From Thiotrichales bacterium 35-46-9 (GTDB taxonomy: Bacteria; Pseudomonadota; Gammaproteobacteria; Thiomicrospirales; Thiomicrospiraceae), in NCBI GenBank assembly GCA_002281095.1, contig NCFI01000006.1, positions 1 to 37,133 of the forward strand: DNA of 37,133 nt, written 5' to 3'. Below, in pieces: positions 10,953 through 22,053 of this stretch. How positions within the stretch are numbered: the stretch's first letter is position 1; the number at the start of each line of letters is the position of its first letter. Both the position numbers and the translations under genes were made by a program. The notes beneath the pieces are model-generated. The model saw only the letters and a program-made list of their open reading frames with translations. It was not told the DNA's origin and made no database searches.

Positions 10953-11956
10953 GGTGTTTCTCCTTGTTTCACCAAGCTGAGTTGTTGCGTGCCAGGCCAA
11001 CTGGCTTGCCAACCGGGTAAAGCAACCGCTTGTGATAACTGAGCCTCGGTTAAGGGAGCAGACCAAGTTAACACCATGCCTTTATCCGACAGCTGCAACT
11101 GGCTAAGCGGTGGAAAATTGACCAAGGTGGCATCTAGCTGTTGCAAGGCTAATAAGGGCGAGCTTTGTAACTGTGTCTGCAACGCCTGACGTTCTTTCAG
11201 CACCGACTTTGCCTGTGCCAAGAGATTCACCTGACGTTTAATTTCCGGAAAATGGCTTTTAACCAAGGCTTGCGTTTGCTGTTGTAACCCTTCTGTGGCG
11301 CGACTCTGTTGTAGCGTGTTGGTTAAGCTGACCAGCGCAGTCATCACCAACACCCCAGCTAATAGCAGCGCAGGCGTTTTCCATGCCCCCAATCCCGACC
11401 ACTGCCACTGACGTTTTCCCGCGCCTTGACGTAAGTCGAAGCTGGGTTGAACGGCAGGTAACGCACTGAGCGGCAAGCGTTTGATGTTCCAATCGGACGG
11501 TAATGACTCAATAGCAGCTTCACCATAACACACCAGGGTTTGTCGTTGCGATGCAGGCAAGGTCTGTAATAGGGTCAACATGGTCGCTGGTTGACCCGCC
11601 GTGCCTTCCCATTCACCCCAACGCACCAGCCAACGCTGTTCGCTTTCACACAGCAAGGTCACTTGATCGGCTTGCCAAGGCAGGCGCATAAAATCCGGGT
11701 ACCAAGCGGCAGCCGTCTGTGCCGACTGCTCAGCGAAAGCCTGCCAGTCTTGCTGGGCAATCGCCACCACCCAGCCTTCACCCGATGCCCCTTCACGTAC
11801 AGCAATAAGTTCAAGCTGCTGCACATCGCTTGCCAGTCGTTCTTCTAGCGCATAAGGCAAAGCGGCGCGCCATTGCCGACCTTTAGGAAATACCAGCCGA
11901 TGCCAACTCATCCATTCGGATGGAAATGGCACCGCCAGTGCCGAATTTGGATTCAT
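10949..11956 (-). CDS. gspL: Type II secretion system protein L
   Basis: GspL links the cytosolic ATPase GspE to the inner-membrane platform. The 335-residue protein has an actin-like cytosolic part (about 1-190, with LPYALEERLASDVQQL as the most recognisable block). A single transmembrane helix lies at about 194-213, followed by a periplasmic ferredoxin-like domain that is Leu/Gln-rich. It is slightly shorter than the usual 380-400 residues. It overlaps gspK by one base (TAATG) and gspM by four, so this part of the operon is translationally coupled. Confidence 0.92.
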   Translation of the reverse strand: MNPNSALAVPFPSEWMSWHRLVFPKGRQWRAALPYALEERLASDVQQLELIAVREGASGEGWVVAIAQQDWQAFAEQSAQTAAAWYPDFMRLPWQADQVTLLCESEQRWLVRWGEWEGTAGQPATMLTLLQTLPASQRQTLVCYGEAAIESLPSDWNIKRLPLSALPAVQPSFDLRQGAGKRQWQWSGLGAWKTPALLLAGVLVMTALVSLTNTLQQSRATEGLQQQTQALVKSHFPEIKRQVNLLAQAKSVLKERQALQTQLQSSPLLALQQLDATLVNFPPLSQLQLSDKGMVLTWSAPLTEAQLSQAVALPGWQASWPGTQQLSLVKQGETP

Positions 11957-14806: not shown

Positions 14807-16030
14807 TTAACCAACCAACTGATTCATGGCAAAAATAGGCAATAAAATGGCCATGACAATGAGTAACACCACGCCACCCATGACCAAAATCAGTACCGGT
14901 TCAATCAGCTTCACCAACGAAGCTGATAAAGCTTGTGTGCTCACTTCGTAGTGATGCGCCACACGTCCCAGCATATCGGGTAGCCGTCCCGACGCTTCGC
15001 CACTTTCCACCAAATAGCGCACCAATGAAGGAAAGGCCTTAGATTCGGCCAAAGCGCGATACAAAGGCACGCCTTCACGCACTTGCACCGCCATGTTATC
15101 GACTGCCAAACGTTGCGGTAATAGGCTCAACACCTGTGCTGAAATGCGCAAGGCTTCTACCGCCGGTACACCGCTATTCAACAACACCGATAATGTACGC
15201 GCCCAACGCGCCGTATTCGACTCAGTCAGCAATTTACCAAACAGCGGTAAGCGCAATAACAGCCGATGCCAACGCAAGCGAAAGGCATCGCGCTTTAATA
15301 ACCACTTAAACACGCCAAACGCCACCAATAGCAGCAGTAGCAAGGCGAACCACCAGTTAGCTAACCAATCACTGACGGCAATGAGGCCTTGCGTCAACGG
15401 GGGTAGTGATTGCTTCATATGGGTGAACATCACCACCACTTTCGGCACCACCACCGTGAGCAAAAAAACAACAATCACAAGCGATAGGGTGAGCATTAAA
15501 ATAGGGTAAAACATAGCCCCTTTCATTTGCCCCGACACCTGCTCGCGTAATTCGATGGCATCGGCCAATTTGGCCATCACCACCGTTAAATTGCCCGACT
15601 CTTCGCCCGCACCAATCATCGCAACCACATCATCGGGCAGACGATAAGGCGCACTGCGAAAGGCATTCGCTAACGACTGACCTTCCTGCACCTGACCATG
15701 CACATGGGTCAGTAATCGCCCCAAGCGTTTACTTTCCGCCTGTGCCGATAAAATCGACAATACTTGCGCCAAGGGCAAGCCGCCTTCGAGCAGGGTAGCG
15801 ATTTGACGCGTCAGCAATACCAGCTCTTTCAGTGGTAAATACCCACGCCAAAACGAAGCCTGCCACCAACCACTGGTTTGCCGACTGGCCGTTTGCACTT
15901 CATTCACCGACACTGGCGTTAAGCCTTGCGCGCGCAAACTGGAGCGCAAGCTGTAAGCTGAGTCGGCGGTTTGAGTACCTTTAACCGACTTACCGTTAGC
16001 GTTTAAGGCTTGATAATCAAAGCTGGGCAT
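14807..16030 (-). CDS. gspF: Type II secretion system inner-membrane platform protein F
   Basis: GspF is the polytopic core of the inner-membrane platform. The protein starts MPSFDYQALNANGKSVKGT, as usual for the family, and has two T2SSF domains each followed by hydrophobic helices (GAMFYPILMLTLSLVIVVFLLTVVVPKV and the C-terminal PVLILVMGGVVLLIVMAILLPIF). From the ATG at 16030 it is 407 residues, the standard size; a GTG at 16081 would add 17 residues not found in the family. No strong ribosome site is visible for either. It is the first gene of the gspF-N block, and gspE, normally just upstream, lies 4.5 kb away beyond an opposite-strand cassette. Confidence 0.95.
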   Translation of the reverse strand: MPSFDYQALNANGKSVKGTQTADSAYSLRSSLRAQGLTPVSVNEVQTASRQTSGWWQASFWRGYLPLKELVLLTRQIATLLEGGLPLAQVLSILSAQAESKRLGRLLTHVHGQVQEGQSLANAFRSAPYRLPDDVVAMIGAGEESGNLTVVMAKLADAIELREQVSGQMKGAMFYPILMLTLSLVIVVFLLTVVVPKVVVMFTHMKQSLPPLTQGLIAVSDWLANWWFALLLLLLVAFGVFKWLLKRDAFRLRWHRLLLRLPLFGKLLTESNTARWARTLSVLLNSGVPAVEALRISAQVLSLLPQRLAVDNMAVQVREGVPLYRALAESKAFPSLVRYLVESGEASGRLPDMLGRVAHHYEVSTQALSASLVKLIEPVLILVMGGVVLLIVMAILLPIFAMNQLVG

Positions 16031-16094
16031 AAATTGAAATAAACCTTGAGGTGACGCTTGTTTAGCTCGTAAAGATAACACAATCTTAAGTCAT

Positions 16095-16115
16095 CGTCAT
16101 GACATTATCATGACG
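16095..16115. promoter_or_regulatory. Perfect inverted repeat, possible operator
   Basis: CGTCATGA (16095-16102) and TCATGACG (16108-16115) form an eight-base perfect dyad with a five-base spacer. It sits 65 bases upstream of the gspF start and 44 bases upstream of the -35 of the divergent lipoprotein gene. Its symmetry and place suggest a regulator binding site acting on gspF-N, the lipoprotein gene or both. The regulator cannot be named from this sequence. Confidence 0.5.
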
Positions 16116-16158
16116 GCTAAGCGTTGAACGAGTGGCAATGAAAATTGATATTCAGAAG

Positions 16159-16188
16159 TTGACAATTCGATATGGGGGGGGATAGCAT
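16159..16188 (+). promoter_or_regulatory. Candidate phase-variable promoter with G8 tract in the spacer
   Basis: A consensus -35 TTGACA (16159-16164) is followed after 18 bases by TAGCAT (16183-16188), a four-of-six -10. The spacer contains eight consecutive G (16174-16181). Slipped-strand changes in the G run would alter the -35/-10 spacing, with seven G giving the optimal 17. The likely ATG is 41 bases after the -10. The strand, spacing and homopolymer are read directly; switching is inferred. Confidence 0.6.
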
Positions 16189-16228
16189 AAGCAACAAATC
16201 TATTCAACCCTCAAAAGAGATAAAAACC

Positions 16229-18880
16229 ATGCAAAAAACCATGCGCAAATTGCCGCTAGCGGCTGTTATTGTGTCTGCGACTTTATTAACTGCCTGTGGT
16301 GGCGGTGGTGACTCACCGATCGGTGGCACATCTACTACAACTACTGGATCATCTTCTTCACTCTCTGGTACTGCCGCCAAAGGTATTATCAAACAAGCAC
16401 TTGTGACTGCCGAAGAATTAGTCGGCACTTCATGGGTTGCGCGTGGTACTGCTACCACCGACAACAACGGTGACTATACGCTGACGATGACTGGCTACAC
16501 CAACGGCGTGGTGCGCGTTACCGTCACGCCAACTGCTAGCACCCGCATGGTGTGTGATGCACCCAGCGGCTGTATTAGTGCCGACGGTAGCACAACGCCT
16601 TTCGGAAGCGATGCTACGCTAGCTAACGACTTTAGCATGAAATCGGTTGTACCTCCTGTCACCACAACAGACAACAAAGCCTACGTTACCCCTCTTACCG
16701 ATATGGTGGCGGCTAATTTAGAGCAAAATCCAGCCGGCATCAATAGCGATACCATTAAACAAAAGTCGAACCAAGTGGCTGGCATTTTTGGCTTAGGTGA
16801 CATTTTACGCACTCGTCCTATCGATATTACTAAAGGCATTGCTGGACAAGATCAATCTGAACAAAGCTATGCCTTAGCGCTCTCTGCCGTTGCAGAAATG
16901 GTCAATAAAAGTTCTACCAATGCTACAGGCGCAACACAAGCTTTAGCCAAATTAAGAAACAGTTTCTTAGATGGTAAATTCGATAGCACTGATAGCTTCA
17001 GTGGTAATAAAGATGTACTCACCAGCATTTTAGAAACCAAAACAGCCGTGCTTAACGACAACGTCATTTCTGGCAAAATCGATGCGCAAGTTAAAACCAT
17101 TATTCTGAACGATACAACTGACAAACAAACCAGCTATAAACCAGCGGAAGGCTACACACCGCCCGTCGTCGAAACCGCTGTTGCTAACGATATTGACAAA
17201 GCTAAAGCCATTGTTGCTCAAGCGCGTGCCTTACAATCGAGTATCAGCAGTATGGAAAGTCCGGCTCAGTCGTTTAGCAACCAAATCGATACGGTAAGTA
17301 AAGTGTGGAATGATCGCAGTAGTTTAATGGCCGTCTATTTATCTGAAATCATTCAAGACGTGGCTGCGCAACTCGGCTCTGGCATTACTGGTTCAGTAAC
17401 AGATCAGTCAGTAATAATCAATACAACGCAATCTCTAAGCTGTTATCCAGACAGCAATGGCACACTGAAAGTTAGCCTATATAACAACACCAATCAAACC
17501 ACATCGGTTCAAAATGCTTCTTGTCAGGTTTACGATTCGTACTACAATACTACCAACAATCCAATGGGCACGGTAAAAGTCAGTGTTGCTGATTCCGCAA
17601 ACGGATTGTTAATCACCGTTAGCAAAGCATTGGCCACCAATGGCGGCGATCTATTACCAGCTGTGAATTTAAGCCTCACACTCCCTGGTTTTACCACGGC
17701 TGACCTAACAGCCAAGAGCAAAACATTGTCGAACGCTTCCTTTGTTATTGGCGGCAATATCAGCGACACCCGTGCTAGCATGATCTTTAACAACCTGACG
17801 GCAACGGCTAACTTTTTAGAAGCTTACACGGCAAGTGATAGCAACACCACCATGCCTGTATTAACCAACGCCTCTTTCAAGGGCGATATTCGCTTGGCAG
17901 ATACAGTGACCAATGGTAGCTTTGTAGGCAATGTTGATATTACTGCGGTTCGACCAACCACTGCAGGCTCATCGGGCAACCTAAGTATTAGCAAAGTCGC
18001 TTTAGACGGTACTTTTAGCCATGCAAGTAATAGCCTTAAGGCTGCCGCGACATTTAACCTAACCAATGCCGCTTCGTTTGATTTAACTGCGTTCAGTAGC
18101 TATGAGAAAACGAAATATATTTATGCGGGTAGCTACTCAAACACGCCATTAAACCTTAATACAAGTAATATCGCGAGTTTAGCAACGCAAGCGGGAGTGC
18201 CCAGCGATATTTCAAACCTTTTTGTAAATTATTACAACTATGGATATAGCTACTTTAATGGACACACTACAGTCGAAATACCAAATAATAGTACCTGCTT
18301 CAGCTATTACACTGGTGCACCAACTTATACAAGCGGCAATAAGTGTACCGCAGGTGACGTATTAGGCTTCGCTGATGCACTCAAAACCCAAGCACCAAAT
18401 GCTATGGATTTCACACTGCAAAGTGGTTCCTACTCGCCAGCTAGTGAGTACAGTCCAGCTTATTCATCTGCTGGTGGCTACGCTACTTTCCCCGACTATG
18501 AGTCAGCCACTAACTTTGCTCAGGGTAACTTAACCCTTAGCCTAGATGCCAACTTAGCTGGCTTCCCCAATACTGTGGCAACCGTGACGGTAGATCGTCA
18601 AGGCTATCCTGATATTGGTACAGCAGTGGTATCGTTAAAACAGCAAAGCGTGAATCGTGGTCTGACCATTTCAGCAAGCAACAGCGTGGCGAATGGAGCT
18701 TCTAACATTAATGCCTTAACGGTTACCAGCTTAGACGGCACAACCATGATGCTGAATAAATCCAATAGTGGTGGTATTCAAGGCACCATTAAAGTGGGTA
18801 ATACGACCGTTGCCGACATTATTGATATGAAAGGTTGGACAAAAGTCAGCTTCAAGGATGGTACTTTTGAAAGCTTCTAA
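16229..18880 (+). CDS. Large surface-type lipoprotein of unknown function
   Basis: The 883-residue protein has a lipoprotein signal peptide: MRKLPLAAVIVSATLLTAC with the lipidated Cys at residue 23, followed by GGGGDS and a Thr/Ser-rich linker. Residues about 45-130 look like a carboxypeptidase-regulatory-type beta-sandwich (LSGTAAKGIIKQALVTAEEL, NNGDYTLTMTGY). The remainder is rich in Asn, Ser, Thr and Ala, predicted beta or mixed, without a motif I recognise. The absence of Asp at +2 fits outer-membrane sorting. An ATG at 16172 opens the same frame but would bury the signal peptide behind 19 residues; the ATG at 16229, after AAAGAGA, is chosen. It is followed, with a 23-base overlap, by a barrel-like protein. 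A T2SS-exported surface lipoprotein is plausible but unproven. Confidence 0.85.
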   Translation: MQKTMRKLPLAAVIVSATLLTACGGGGDSPIGGTSTTTTGSSSSLSGTAAKGIIKQALVTAEELVGTSWVARGTATTDNNGDYTLTMTGYTNGVVRVTVTPTASTRMVCDAPSGCISADGSTTPFGSDATLANDFSMKSVVPPVTTTDNKAYVTPLTDMVAANLEQNPAGINSDTIKQKSNQVAGIFGLGDILRTRPIDITKGIAGQDQSEQSYALALSAVAEMVNKSSTNATGATQALAKLRNSFLDGKFDSTDSFSGNKDVLTSILETKTAVLNDNVISGKIDAQVKTIILNDTTDKQTSYKPAEGYTPPVVETAVANDIDKAKAIVAQARALQSSISSMESPAQSFSNQIDTVSKVWNDRSSLMAVYLSEIIQDVAAQLGSGITGSVTDQSVIINTTQSLSCYPDSNGTLKVSLYNNTNQTTSVQNASCQVYDSYYNTTNNPMGTVKVSVADSANGLLITVSKALATNGGDLLPAVNLSLTLPGFTTADLTAKSKTLSNASFVIGGNISDTRASMIFNNLTATANFLEAYTASDSNTTMPVLTNASFKGDIRLADTVTNGSFVGNVDITAVRPTTAGSSGNLSISKVALDGTFSHASNSLKAAATFNLTNAASFDLTAFSSYEKTKYIYAGSYSNTPLNLNTSNIASLATQAGVPSDISNLFVNYYNYGYSYFNGHTTVEIPNNSTCFSYYTGAPTYTSGNKCTAGDVLGFADALKTQAPNAMDFTLQSGSYSPASEYSPAYSSAGGYATFPDYESATNFAQGNLTLSLDANLAGFPNTVATVTVDRQGYPDIGTAVVSLKQQSVNRGLTISASNSVANGASNINALTVTSLDGTTMMLNKSNSGGIQGTIKVGNTTVADIIDMKGWTKVSFKDGTFESF

Positions 18881-19964
18881 GGTTCAATTTGGTTTAACCC
18901 TGTTAGAGGTGGCACTTGCCGCCTCTTTTTTTAGCTCACAAACCCTGCTCGCCAAAGACACAGAGTGGCATCCTTATCTGTTGATAGATTCGTTCAATAT
19001 GTCTGAATCTATGGCCATTACCCAATTAGATGGTGGCAAAGGAGAGTTTCATAGTGGCGGCGAGCGAGCCTTTACCTCTAACTGGTTAGAAATAGGCGTA
19101 ACCTACCGTGATTGGTCACTCGGCGCGTTGTATCGTTACGAACAAAGTTATCGTTATTCGAGCGATTTTGCTGATTTTTATTACGCCATTAGTCAAGAAA
19201 ACCCGCTAACCAGTAACCGAAATTATCAACTCAACTTAGCCGCTGAACGTTGGCGAGGGTCTGGCTTGCGCCTAGCATATCAATTCGCATGGACTGACCA
19301 TCATCAACTACAACTAGGTGCTAGCTTGTTTAATGCAGACAATCTGAGCTATGGCACAATTGATGGTTATGCCAACTCTCCCACCCCTAAAACCTACAAC
19401 TACCAAGCGAATGTGAATTATCGCTATGAACAAGACGAACTCTTTGGTCGTACTACTCGCCAAGAAAGCCAAGGTCGTGGCTATGCGTTAGACCTGAAGG
19501 CAAGTGGTCAATTTAATAATGGCGTTCGTTACCAACTTTGGCTTCGCGACGCTTTAGGGAGCATTGATTGGGGCAGGACGCTGAAAACAACGGCAGTCGC
19601 AACATCGAAAGTGGTGAGTTACACGCCCGACGGCTACTTACAGGTAGCACCTGTTTTATCGGGACGAGAAGGCGCAAGTAACTTTACTCAATCCCTTTCT
19701 CCTTGGATTAATGCTAGTCTATCAGTACCTTTATCTAATCATTTTGATGCTATTCTTGCCTACCAAGAACACTACGCTTATGGTCAAAAAGGCATTGGAT
19801 TGGCGACTAAAGCACTATTTGATCGAACCAGTTTGGTTATCTTCCCCGAACAATCCTTAGTCAATCTTGGCATAGAACAAGGACACTGGCGTTTTGGTGT
19901 TGCGTCAGATGCGATTAACCTAGATGAAGCCAGAAGCTTTTGGCTAACGTTAGGTTATCGTTAA
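18858..19964 (+). CDS. Predicted outer-membrane beta-barrel protein
   Basis: The 368-residue protein has an N-terminal signal peptide, probably cut after LLA near residue 32. It then shows alternating aromatic and hydrophobic strands (WLEIGVTYRDWSLGALYRYEQ, YQLNLAAERW, YALDLKASGQF) and ends in YR after a final strand SFWLTLGYR, much like a terminal barrel strand. I do not recognise the family. It overlaps the lipoprotein gene by 23 bases, which implies coupled translation and a functional pair, for example a barrel that anchors, displays or secretes the lipoprotein. A TTG three codons downstream of the ATG is an alternative start. Assignment of location is reasonable, function unknown. Confidence 0.75.
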   Translation: MVLLKASKVQFGLTLLEVALAASFFSSQTLLAKDTEWHPYLLIDSFNMSESMAITQLDGGKGEFHSGGERAFTSNWLEIGVTYRDWSLGALYRYEQSYRYSSDFADFYYAISQENPLTSNRNYQLNLAAERWRGSGLRLAYQFAWTDHHQLQLGASLFNADNLSYGTIDGYANSPTPKTYNYQANVNYRYEQDELFGRTTRQESQGRGYALDLKASGQFNNGVRYQLWLRDALGSIDWGRTLKTTAVATSKVVSYTPDGYLQVAPVLSGREGASNFTQSLSPWINASLSVPLSNHFDAILAYQEHYAYGQKGIGLATKALFDRTSLVIFPEQSLVNLGIEQGHWRFGVASDAINLDEARSFWLTLGYR

Positions 19965-20034
19965 CCACCAAGCACGAACAACCTATTTTATTGTGCTAGA
20001 ATAATTCTTAAATAACATGCTAAGGGTGAACCAC

Positions 20035-20580
20035 ATGAGCGCACTACTTAAACCCGAATATCTACCCCATTACACTTACGACGACTATGCCCACTGGGAA
20101 GGGCAGTGGGAGCTGATTGAAGGCGTACCTTACGCCATGTCGCCAGCTCCTAATATTCGTCATCAATCGATATCGGGCAGACTTCATTGGCTCATTGCGC
20201 AGGCGCTCAAGGATTGCAAAGATTGCCAGTCACTACAAGCTGTGGACTGGAAAATCAGCCATGATACGGTCGTTCAGCCAGATAATTTGGTCACTTGCCC
20301 GAAAGCTTCGGGACAATACTTAACTCGTGCGCCCCAGCTTATTTTCGAGATACTATCACCCAGCACCGCCCACAAAGATCGCACACTCAAGTTCGACCTT
20401 TACGAACGTGAAGGCGTGCTATGGTATGTGCTAGTCGATGCTCAAGATCAGGTAGTGCATATTTTTCAACGCATTGAAGGTAAGTATCGCAAAATTGCTG
20501 ATATCAGTGATGCATCTTTTACCTTCGATTGGCAAGACTGCGCCATCAACCTTAATGTTAACGAATTGTGGGAAGACTAA
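20035..20580 (+). CDS. Uma2-family (DUF820) PD-(D/E)XK nuclease-like protein
   Basis: The 181-residue protein carries family blocks: YTYDDYAHWEGQWELIEGVPYAMSPAPNIRHQ at the start, DTVVQPDNLVTC with the catalytic-type Asp, and LIFEILSPSTAHKDRTLKFDLYEREGVLWYVLVD with Glu and Lys-like positions. The fold is a restriction-endonuclease-like domain. Uma2 proteins are abundant in cyanobacteria and scattered in proteobacteria, often in mobile or multi-copy form, with no agreed function. The ATG at 20035 follows TAAGGGTG at proper distance and is preferred over 20017. The gene converges on gspE with a six-base gap and could have arrived with the preceding pair. Confidence 0.85.
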   Translation: MSALLKPEYLPHYTYDDYAHWEGQWELIEGVPYAMSPAPNIRHQSISGRLHWLIAQALKDCKDCQSLQAVDWKISHDTVVQPDNLVTCPKASGQYLTRAPQLIFEILSPSTAHKDRTLKFDLYEREGVLWYVLVDAQDQVVHIFQRIEGKYRKIADISDASFTFDWQDCAINLNVNELWED

Positions 20581-20586
20581 CCCAGC

Positions 20587-22053
20587 CTACCCCTGCGTGA
20601 CTCTTAACACTTCGGCCAGTGTGGTATTGCCTGCTATGGCTTGCTCGAAGCCATTATCACGCAAAGATTTCATGCCCATACTGCGTACATAGGCTTCCAT
20701 CGCTTGTTCGCTTTCGCCTGAATGAATGAGATGGCGCAGGGTTTCATCAACGCTAATCCATTCATAAATGGCCATACGACCGGCAAAACCCGACGGGCAA
20801 TCGGGGCTAGACCCCGGTTCAAATAAAGACAAAGGCACCTCAACCGGACGCGACAATAAGCGACATTCCGCCTCATCAGCGGCACGGGAGAGCTTCACAC
20901 TGGGGCACAAACGACGCACCAGTCGTTGCGCCAAAATACCGACTAACGACGAAGCCAGCAAAAAAGGTTCGACACCCATATCACGCAAGCGGGTAATAGC
21001 ACCAATGGCGGTATTGGTATGCAGGGTCGATAACACCAAATGCCCGGTTAACGAAGCCTGAACGGCAATTTGCGCCGTTTCACCATCTCGAACTTCCCCC
21101 ACCATCACCACATCGGGGTCTTGACGCAAAATAGCACGTAGCCCACGGGCAAAAGTCATATCGGTTTTTAAGTTGACCTGCGTTTGACTGATGCCATTCA
21201 GCTCGTATTCAACAGGATCTTCCACCGTCATGATGTTACGCTCTACCGCATTCAAGTGCGACAATGCCGCATAAAGCGTGGTGGTTTTGCCCGAACCCGT
21301 TGGCCCGGTGACCAAAATAATACCGTGCGCTTTGGCTAAATTCGCATGAATACCCTTAAATACCTGTTCGGGCATACCTAATTGCGATAGGGATAACAAG
21401 CCTGCACTCTTATCGAGCAAACGTAACACCACCCGCTCACCATATTGCGAAGGCAGGGTCGAAACGCGCAAATCAACCATGCGCGAGCCTAATTGCAGCG
21501 CAATACGACCATCTTGTGGCAAACGTTTTTCGGCAATATCCAAACGTGCCATCACCTTTAAGCGCGAAATGAGCAAGGGCGCAAAGGTGGCTTTCGGTTC
21601 TAATACCGTTTGTAACATCCCGTCCATGCGGAAACGCACACGCAGAGTATCTTCAAAAGGTTCTAAATGAATATCCGAAGCTTTACGCTTAATCGCTTCG
21701 GCTAGGGTGGCATTCAAGAAACGAATCACCGGCGCTTCGTCATTAGAAGCGAGCAAGTCTTCCTTTTGCACCCGCATCAGATCAAAAGCGTCACTCATGT
21801 CTAATGCATCGAGCATGGTTTCACTGCCCGACAATTCGCCACCATCGGCATAAACACGCGACACGGCCAACTCATACTGAGCGACGCTAACAGGCTGCAC
21901 CTGTGGCGCAACAGAATGACTGGCACGTAAGGCTTCTAACAATGCCGAAGCTGTGGCATCGGGGCGCACCAACAGCATCCAACCTTCCAATTCATGCACC
22001 AACAGCACACCCTGTCCTTGCACAAAATGATAAGGGAAGCGCAAACTACTCAT
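20587..22053 (-). CDS. gspE: Type II secretion system ATPase E
   Basis: This hexameric cytosolic ATPase drives pseudopilus assembly. It has an N-terminal GspL-binding region, then a Walker A GPTGSGKTTTL at 250-260, the Asp box near 278 (VEDPVEY), Walker B MVGEVRDGETA at 317-327 and a His box LSTLHTN near 341-347. The length of 488 residues is normal. The C-terminal zinc-binding motif, CxxC...CxxC in most GspE proteins, is degenerate: single Cys383 (LCPSVK) and single Cys419 (PDCPSGF) remain, with Cys397 between them. It is the last gene of the gspCDE block, ten bases from gspD; gspF does not follow it. Confidence 0.97.
   Translation of the reverse strand: MSSLRFPYHFVQGQGVLLVHELEGWMLLVRPDATASALLEALRASHSVAPQVQPVSVAQYELAVSRVYADGGELSGSETMLDALDMSDAFDLMRVQKEDLLASNDEAPVIRFLNATLAEAIKRKASDIHLEPFEDTLRVRFRMDGMLQTVLEPKATFAPLLISRLKVMARLDIAEKRLPQDGRIALQLGSRMVDLRVSTLPSQYGERVVLRLLDKSAGLLSLSQLGMPEQVFKGIHANLAKAHGIILVTGPTGSGKTTTLYAALSHLNAVERNIMTVEDPVEYELNGISQTQVNLKTDMTFARGLRAILRQDPDVVMVGEVRDGETAQIAVQASLTGHLVLSTLHTNTAIGAITRLRDMGVEPFLLASSLVGILAQRLVRRLCPSVKLSRAADEAECRLLSRPVEVPLSLFEPGSSPDCPSGFAGRMAIYEWISVDETLRHLIHSGESEQAMEAYVRSMGMKSLRDNGFEQAIAGNTTLAEVLRVTQG

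Follow-up and report, generated by a model that had tools for sequence, protein, structure and literature searches.

A run of eight G residues (G8) lies between the -35 and -10 hexamers of a predicted sigma70-type promoter directly upstream of a large lipoprotein gene in Thiotrichales bacterium 35-46-9, and the conservation of this arrangement in a second species leaves little doubt that the promoter is real and under constraint. On balance, this promoter is probably fixed, or tunable only slowly, and would drive an uncharacterised pair of lipoprotein and beta-barrel genes; a dedicated high-frequency switch is less likely than a fixed promoter whose spacer is unusual.

Promoter architecture and conservation

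The window, i.e. the whole 37,133-nucleotide stretch of DNA that was analysed, is one contig (NCFI01000006.1) of a 1.83-Mb draft genome (GCA_002281095.1). The original prediction of a phase-variable surface lipoprotein had described TTGACA, TAGCAT, an 18-base gap and G8, and re-reading of the sequence returned all four at exactly the coordinates claimed (Table 1). The large lipoprotein gene it had placed directly after the promoter is likewise present, its ATG following the end of TAGCAT by 40 bases. Transcription would begin near 16195, as predicted from the hexamer positions. On the other side, correction of the start of the divergent gspF gene to 16030 leaves a shared intergenic region of 198 bp.

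Table 1 Features of the lipoprotein promoter region and its flanking genes, in window coordinates
Feature	Position	Strand	Remarks
gspF (type II secretion), divergent neighbour	14807..16030	-	start corrected to 16030 (MPSFDYQ)
-35 hexamer TTGACA	16159..16164	+	read from the sequence; same hexamer in G003
18-base spacer ATTCGATAT-G8-A	16165..16182	+	15/18 identical to ATTCGTTATT-G8 of G003
Upstream in-frame ATG	16172..16174	+	judged a non-start: 5' of the inferred transcription start, frame not kept in G003
G8 homopolymer GGGGGGGG	16174..16181	+	sole noncoding tract of at least eight G in the genome assembly
-10 hexamer TAGCAT, 4/6 to consensus	16183..16188	+	same hexamer in G003
5' leader, 40 bases, ending before ATG 16229	16189..16228	+
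Shine-Dalgarno-like AGAG	16216-16219	+	9 bases 5' of ATG 16229
Lipoprotein gene, 883 aa	16229..18880	+	lipobox LTAC, then GGGG; C-terminal DGTFES-like motif conserved
Probable partner gene, 368 aa	18858..19964	+	overlaps the lipoprotein stop

The nearest sequenced ortholog, and the sole one found, comes from a MAG assigned to this genus, Thiotrichales bacterium isolate 2016_B01_C_3 (JAEMQD010000028.1, hereafter G003); a scan of 84,980 species genomes for the promoter returned this record alone. The promoter of G003 reads TTGACA-ATTCGTTATTGGGGGGGG-TAGCAT, with the hexamers, the 18-base spacer and G8 as in the window, and the homopolymer lies between the -35 hexamer (which ends at 16164 in the window) and the -10 hexamer (which starts at 16183) in both genomes, offset by one base in G003. 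It precedes a lipoprotein N-terminus of 177 aa, cut by the contig end, that is divergent from gspF as in the window. Identity between the two genomes amounts to 27/30 over the promoter and 15/18 over the spacer, compared with about 51% at four-fold degenerate sites (93/183 in gspF and 43/84 in the lipoprotein N-terminus), and it is this difference that identifies the promoter as real and constrained. Against the neutral level of about 51%, a simple binomial calculation in which sites are treated as independent put p at about 7e-6 (promoter) and 0.005 (spacer).

The intergenic DNA 5' of the -35 hexamer is mostly unalignable. The non-G part of the spacer (8/9 conserved) and the leader (32/40 columns identical, with two one-base indels) are kept as well as the G run, so that the constraint spans the whole region from the -35 hexamer to the start codon; the Shine-Dalgarno-like site and ATG 16229 are conserved as well. 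As tract length and spacer are unchanged despite the one-base shift of the tract, the spacing itself looks to be under selection. A G8 tract in an 18-base spacer was thus found in both species compared, although equal length in two species, each represented by one draft assembly of a kind that hides minority tract lengths, is weak evidence of fixity. As a rule, the spacers of sigma70 promoters show no sequence conservation, and the G run may therefore have a special role, either in slippage or as a regulator site.

The lipoprotein gene and its probable beta-barrel partner

The lipoprotein begins with MQKTMRKLPLAAVIVSATLLTAC-GGGG and carries a clear lipoprotein signal, and its 368-aa partner is predicted from its sequence character to be an outer-membrane beta-barrel; with this signal peptide and a barrel-like partner, the lipoprotein may be surface-exposed. 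No relative of the lipoprotein was detected in Pfam, NCBIfam or PDB by sequence or profile, nor of the two-gene unit in the same three collections, and single-sequence folds of the lipoprotein and the barrel protein were uninformative (mean pLDDT 30 and 35). Homologs of the lipoprotein (750-900 aa) with the C-terminal DGTFES-like motif in common occur in scattered gammaproteobacteria, in 17 of 369 genomes sampled across the class, a count that takes in the source genome itself and several partial or weak matches. A barrel homolog adjoins the lipoprotein homolog in seven other gammaproteobacterial loci. The uncharacterised unit of a large lipoprotein with the DGTFES-like motif and a barrel-like protein of ~370 aa was observed at 16229-19964 of the window and at L076, L078, L079, L080, L082, L083 and L085. 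No barrel gene was found in G003, where the contig ends within the lipoprotein gene. No poly-G was seen 5' of homologs outside the genus among the upstream regions read, a few of which were incomplete or started inside the gene, which makes the tract a feature of the genus and not of the family.

Two further observations concern the barrel gene. A hairpin of 9 pairs followed by a T run, strongly terminator-like, lies at 18905-18926, in the first codons of the gene just past the lipoprotein stop, and might attenuate its expression. The barrel N-terminus (18858-18950; KVQFG-LTLLEVALAASFF), which is encoded in part by the hairpin sequence, resembles a type IV prepilin/pseudopilin signal, unlike the homologs.

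The cargo on the gspE-gspF side of the type II secretion operon differs from one genome of the genus to the next (window 16030-20587; L072 8256-10530; L073 1-6301), the cargo genes other than Uma2 having been named by eye. The source genome has the lipoprotein, barrel and Uma2 genes there. In G001, Uma2 is joined by a Phd/YoeB-like pair and an Rpn/PD-(D/E)XK-like gene; G002 has type I restriction-modification genes on the upstream side of gspF, and G003 an apparent remnant of the start of the Rpn-like gene.

G runs in the genome and genus

Counted on either strand of the 1.83-Mb genome, tracts of at least seven G number 19 and those of at least eight G number 5, against about 146 and about 36, respectively, expected from base composition (24.5% G assumed). 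Runs of at least seven G are therefore roughly 7-fold rarer than expected genome-wide. Seventeen of the 19 fall within ORFs, for the most part where ordinary genes encode Gly-Gly or Pro-Pro, and the promoter tract is the only run of at least eight G outside a gene. The four coding runs of this length lie in different genes from those carrying such runs in G001 or G003, and runs of at least eight G other than the promoter tract turn over quickly. The promoter tract is the sole run of this length seen in common between genomes and is therefore maintained.

None of the four genomes representing the genus contains a G run longer than nine, and runs of G8-G9 are present in the housekeeping genes mnmE, hemL, nadE and fliM (gene names taken from translated motifs, not from a family search). 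Since housekeeping genes tolerate such runs, no marked hypermutability attaches to them in this organism, in which the mismatch repair gene mutS1 is intact. No other poly-G contingency locus was found across these four genomes, where the noncoding G8-G9 runs are without switch-like gene context; a G001 candidate (L118) that had looked promising at first was rejected, being not a gene.

A search of 63 family genomes for TTGACA-(7-12)-G6-(0-5)-TA returned eight distinct places, compared with seven matches (six genomes) in the reversed control, and a regulon defined by TTGACA and a G-rich spacer was rejected for want of any excess. In another genus of the family, L087 (G078:C53; contig 11667-11691, minus strand) carries TTGACATTAGTTA-G8-TATAAA with a 15-base spacer ~150 bases 5' of a gene whose small product is probably secreted; it is a second candidate poly-G promoter, and such matches occur at background frequency. 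A C8 run was also observed in a membrane sensor gene whose end is GGDEF-like (L007; G000:C19:18035-18042; MKNTPPKASF...); it lies at codons 4-7, a classical position for translational phase variation.

Comparison with known homopolymeric promoters

Of the two parallels drawn originally, that with Neisseria meningitidis porA holds in so far as poly-G lies between the -35 and -10 hexamers of an outer-membrane protein gene, where single-base changes alter spacer length. The porA tracts, however, vary between 9 and 11 G, and expression is graded with them (high at 11G, two-fold lower at 10G and thirteen-fold lower at 9G; PMC3639595), whereas the candidate tract is G8 in both species seen and has no sequence relationship with porA. 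The parallel with N. meningitidis opc had to be given up except for a promoter homopolymer controlling an outer-membrane protein, since the opc tract is a poly-C encompassing the -35 region, not a poly-G spacer (PMC7864442).

Treponema pallidum tp0126 comes closer than either. The tp0126 gene encodes an OmpW homolog, has poly-G between its -35 and -10 hexamers and is best expressed with 17 bases between them (PMC7864442). Outer-membrane protein gene promoters with 7-11 G are known from both tp0126 and tprL; the tprL tracts vary over this range in vivo, and in an E. coli reporter G8 was active and G10 near background (PMC7864442). In contrast to the present case, length variation and reporter effects have been measured for these two genes, which belong to a different phylum and are unrelated to the lipoprotein. 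Bordetella pertussis fimX also has a short homopolymer within its promoter, a C7/C8 stretch in which one base causes a 3.8-fold transcript change, but this is an activator-dependent fimbrial promoter for which between-strain polymorphism was shown (PMC1891110). Among published cut-offs for contingency loci, G8 falls below the 9 used for Neisseria (PMC5953494) and above the 7 used for Campylobacter (PMC6321876).

Weighing of the rival explanations

Phase variation in the manner of porA and tp0126, whereby slipped-strand mispairing would shift the spacer among 17, 18, 19 and 20 bases and change the dose of the lipoprotein (and the beta-barrel), is a serious possibility that we regard at present as less probable than its negation. 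The tract position matches both systems, a lipoprotein with an outer-membrane partner is a typical class for such control, and the G run was kept in two species despite the depletion of such runs genome-wide. Tracts of similar length, 7-9 G, do vary, not only in tp0126 and tprL but also in Campylobacter; in C. jejuni NCTC 11168 those of 8 or more are variable (PMC6321876). The identical tract and spacer in both species point the other way, as do the G8-G9 runs in housekeeping genes, the homologs of other genera that have no tract and the absence from the genus of any other sign of a poly-G contingency system. The presence of mutS1 also counts against frequent switching, given that loss of mismatch repair raises mononucleotide slippage 100- to 1000-fold in Neisseria (PMC3639595), and a Neisseria survey with a cut-off of G>=9 put the occurrence of a G7 run, which switched at <1e-5, down to chance (PMC5953494). 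The G run might instead form part of an operator, with a regulator binding across the G-rich spacer. We hold this to be unlikely: it would account for the non-G spacer and the leader being conserved as well as the G run, but no dyad symmetry was noticed, a second copy of the motif was not found in the genus, and no regulator gene was noticed adjoining the promoter. As a fixed promoter could contain such an operator, the likelihoods given to the rival readings overlap in part.

That G8 stands beside promoter-like hexamers by chance and without a role is very improbable. The 6.2 kb of the region hold six promoter-like sites, against 9.5 +/- 3.1 in shuffles, so that taken by itself the match to a promoter does not exceed chance expectation, even if 16159-16188 is one of the two top-scoring sites and no other has a perfect -35; by a dinucleotide-shuffle test, a G7 run in the 37-kb window does not exceed it either. 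The lack of excess in the family-wide pattern search is also in keeping with coincidence. What lifts the poly-G promoter above chance is the genome-wide scarcity of G runs together with the conserved arrangement at the orthologous position in G003, where bases, spacing and G run are retained at a level that neutral identity would not lead one to expect. Least credible of all, and rejected here, is the translational alternative also raised in the original prediction, in which slippage would move an N-terminally extended lipoprotein, read from ATG 16172 through the G run, in and out of frame. The frame is indeed open as described, the ORF from 16172 (902 aa) being in frame with that from 16229 (883 aa) when the tract is G8. 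In G003, however, ATT replaces this ATG, and the leader differs by two one-base indels (net -2) although the tract remains G8, so that no frame, and no translated leader through the tract, is conserved between the two genomes; the Shine-Dalgarno-like site and ATG 16229 are kept instead. Placed between the -35 and -10 hexamers, the tract at 16174-16181 lies 5' of the predicted transcript and outside the translated frame. The extension would also bury the signal peptide, as had been foreseen, and a comparable over-long ORF starting upstream of the tract in tp0126 was corrected experimentally as a mis-annotation (PMC7864442).

A fixed or slowly tunable promoter is thus the reading we favour. RNA polymerase would use the TTGACA/TAGCAT hexamers at 16159-16188 to transcribe the lipoprotein gene, in a transcript that probably includes the following beta-barrel gene, and with the spacer constrained at 18 bases and its G8 run maintained, the promoter would normally run at one fixed, moderate strength. 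Slippage at G8 must be expected at some low rate; by the known spacing rule, loss of one G (G7, 17-base spacer) should strengthen the promoter and gain of one (G9, 19-base spacer) should weaken it, making it tunable at most slowly and in a graded way.

Significance

Most known examples of poly-G switches in promoter spacers come from host-adapted pathogens. It is possible, if less likely than not, that the present case is an environmental one, in which a poly-G spacer varies the dose of an uncharacterised outer-membrane lipoprotein and beta-barrel and the switch has been kept across species of a genus of free-living sulfur-oxidising gammaproteobacteria, a lifestyle assigned from taxonomic placement. 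If the tract is fixed, it cautions usefully against taking conservation of a G8 spacer by itself as evidence of phase variation; if length variation were shown, it would add another case to the known poly-G promoter switches. In a free-living sulfur oxidiser, phase variation of these proteins might serve the evasion of phages or predators, and a switch kept across environmental species would suggest that contingency control of surface proteins also serves escape from phages and grazers outside hosts.
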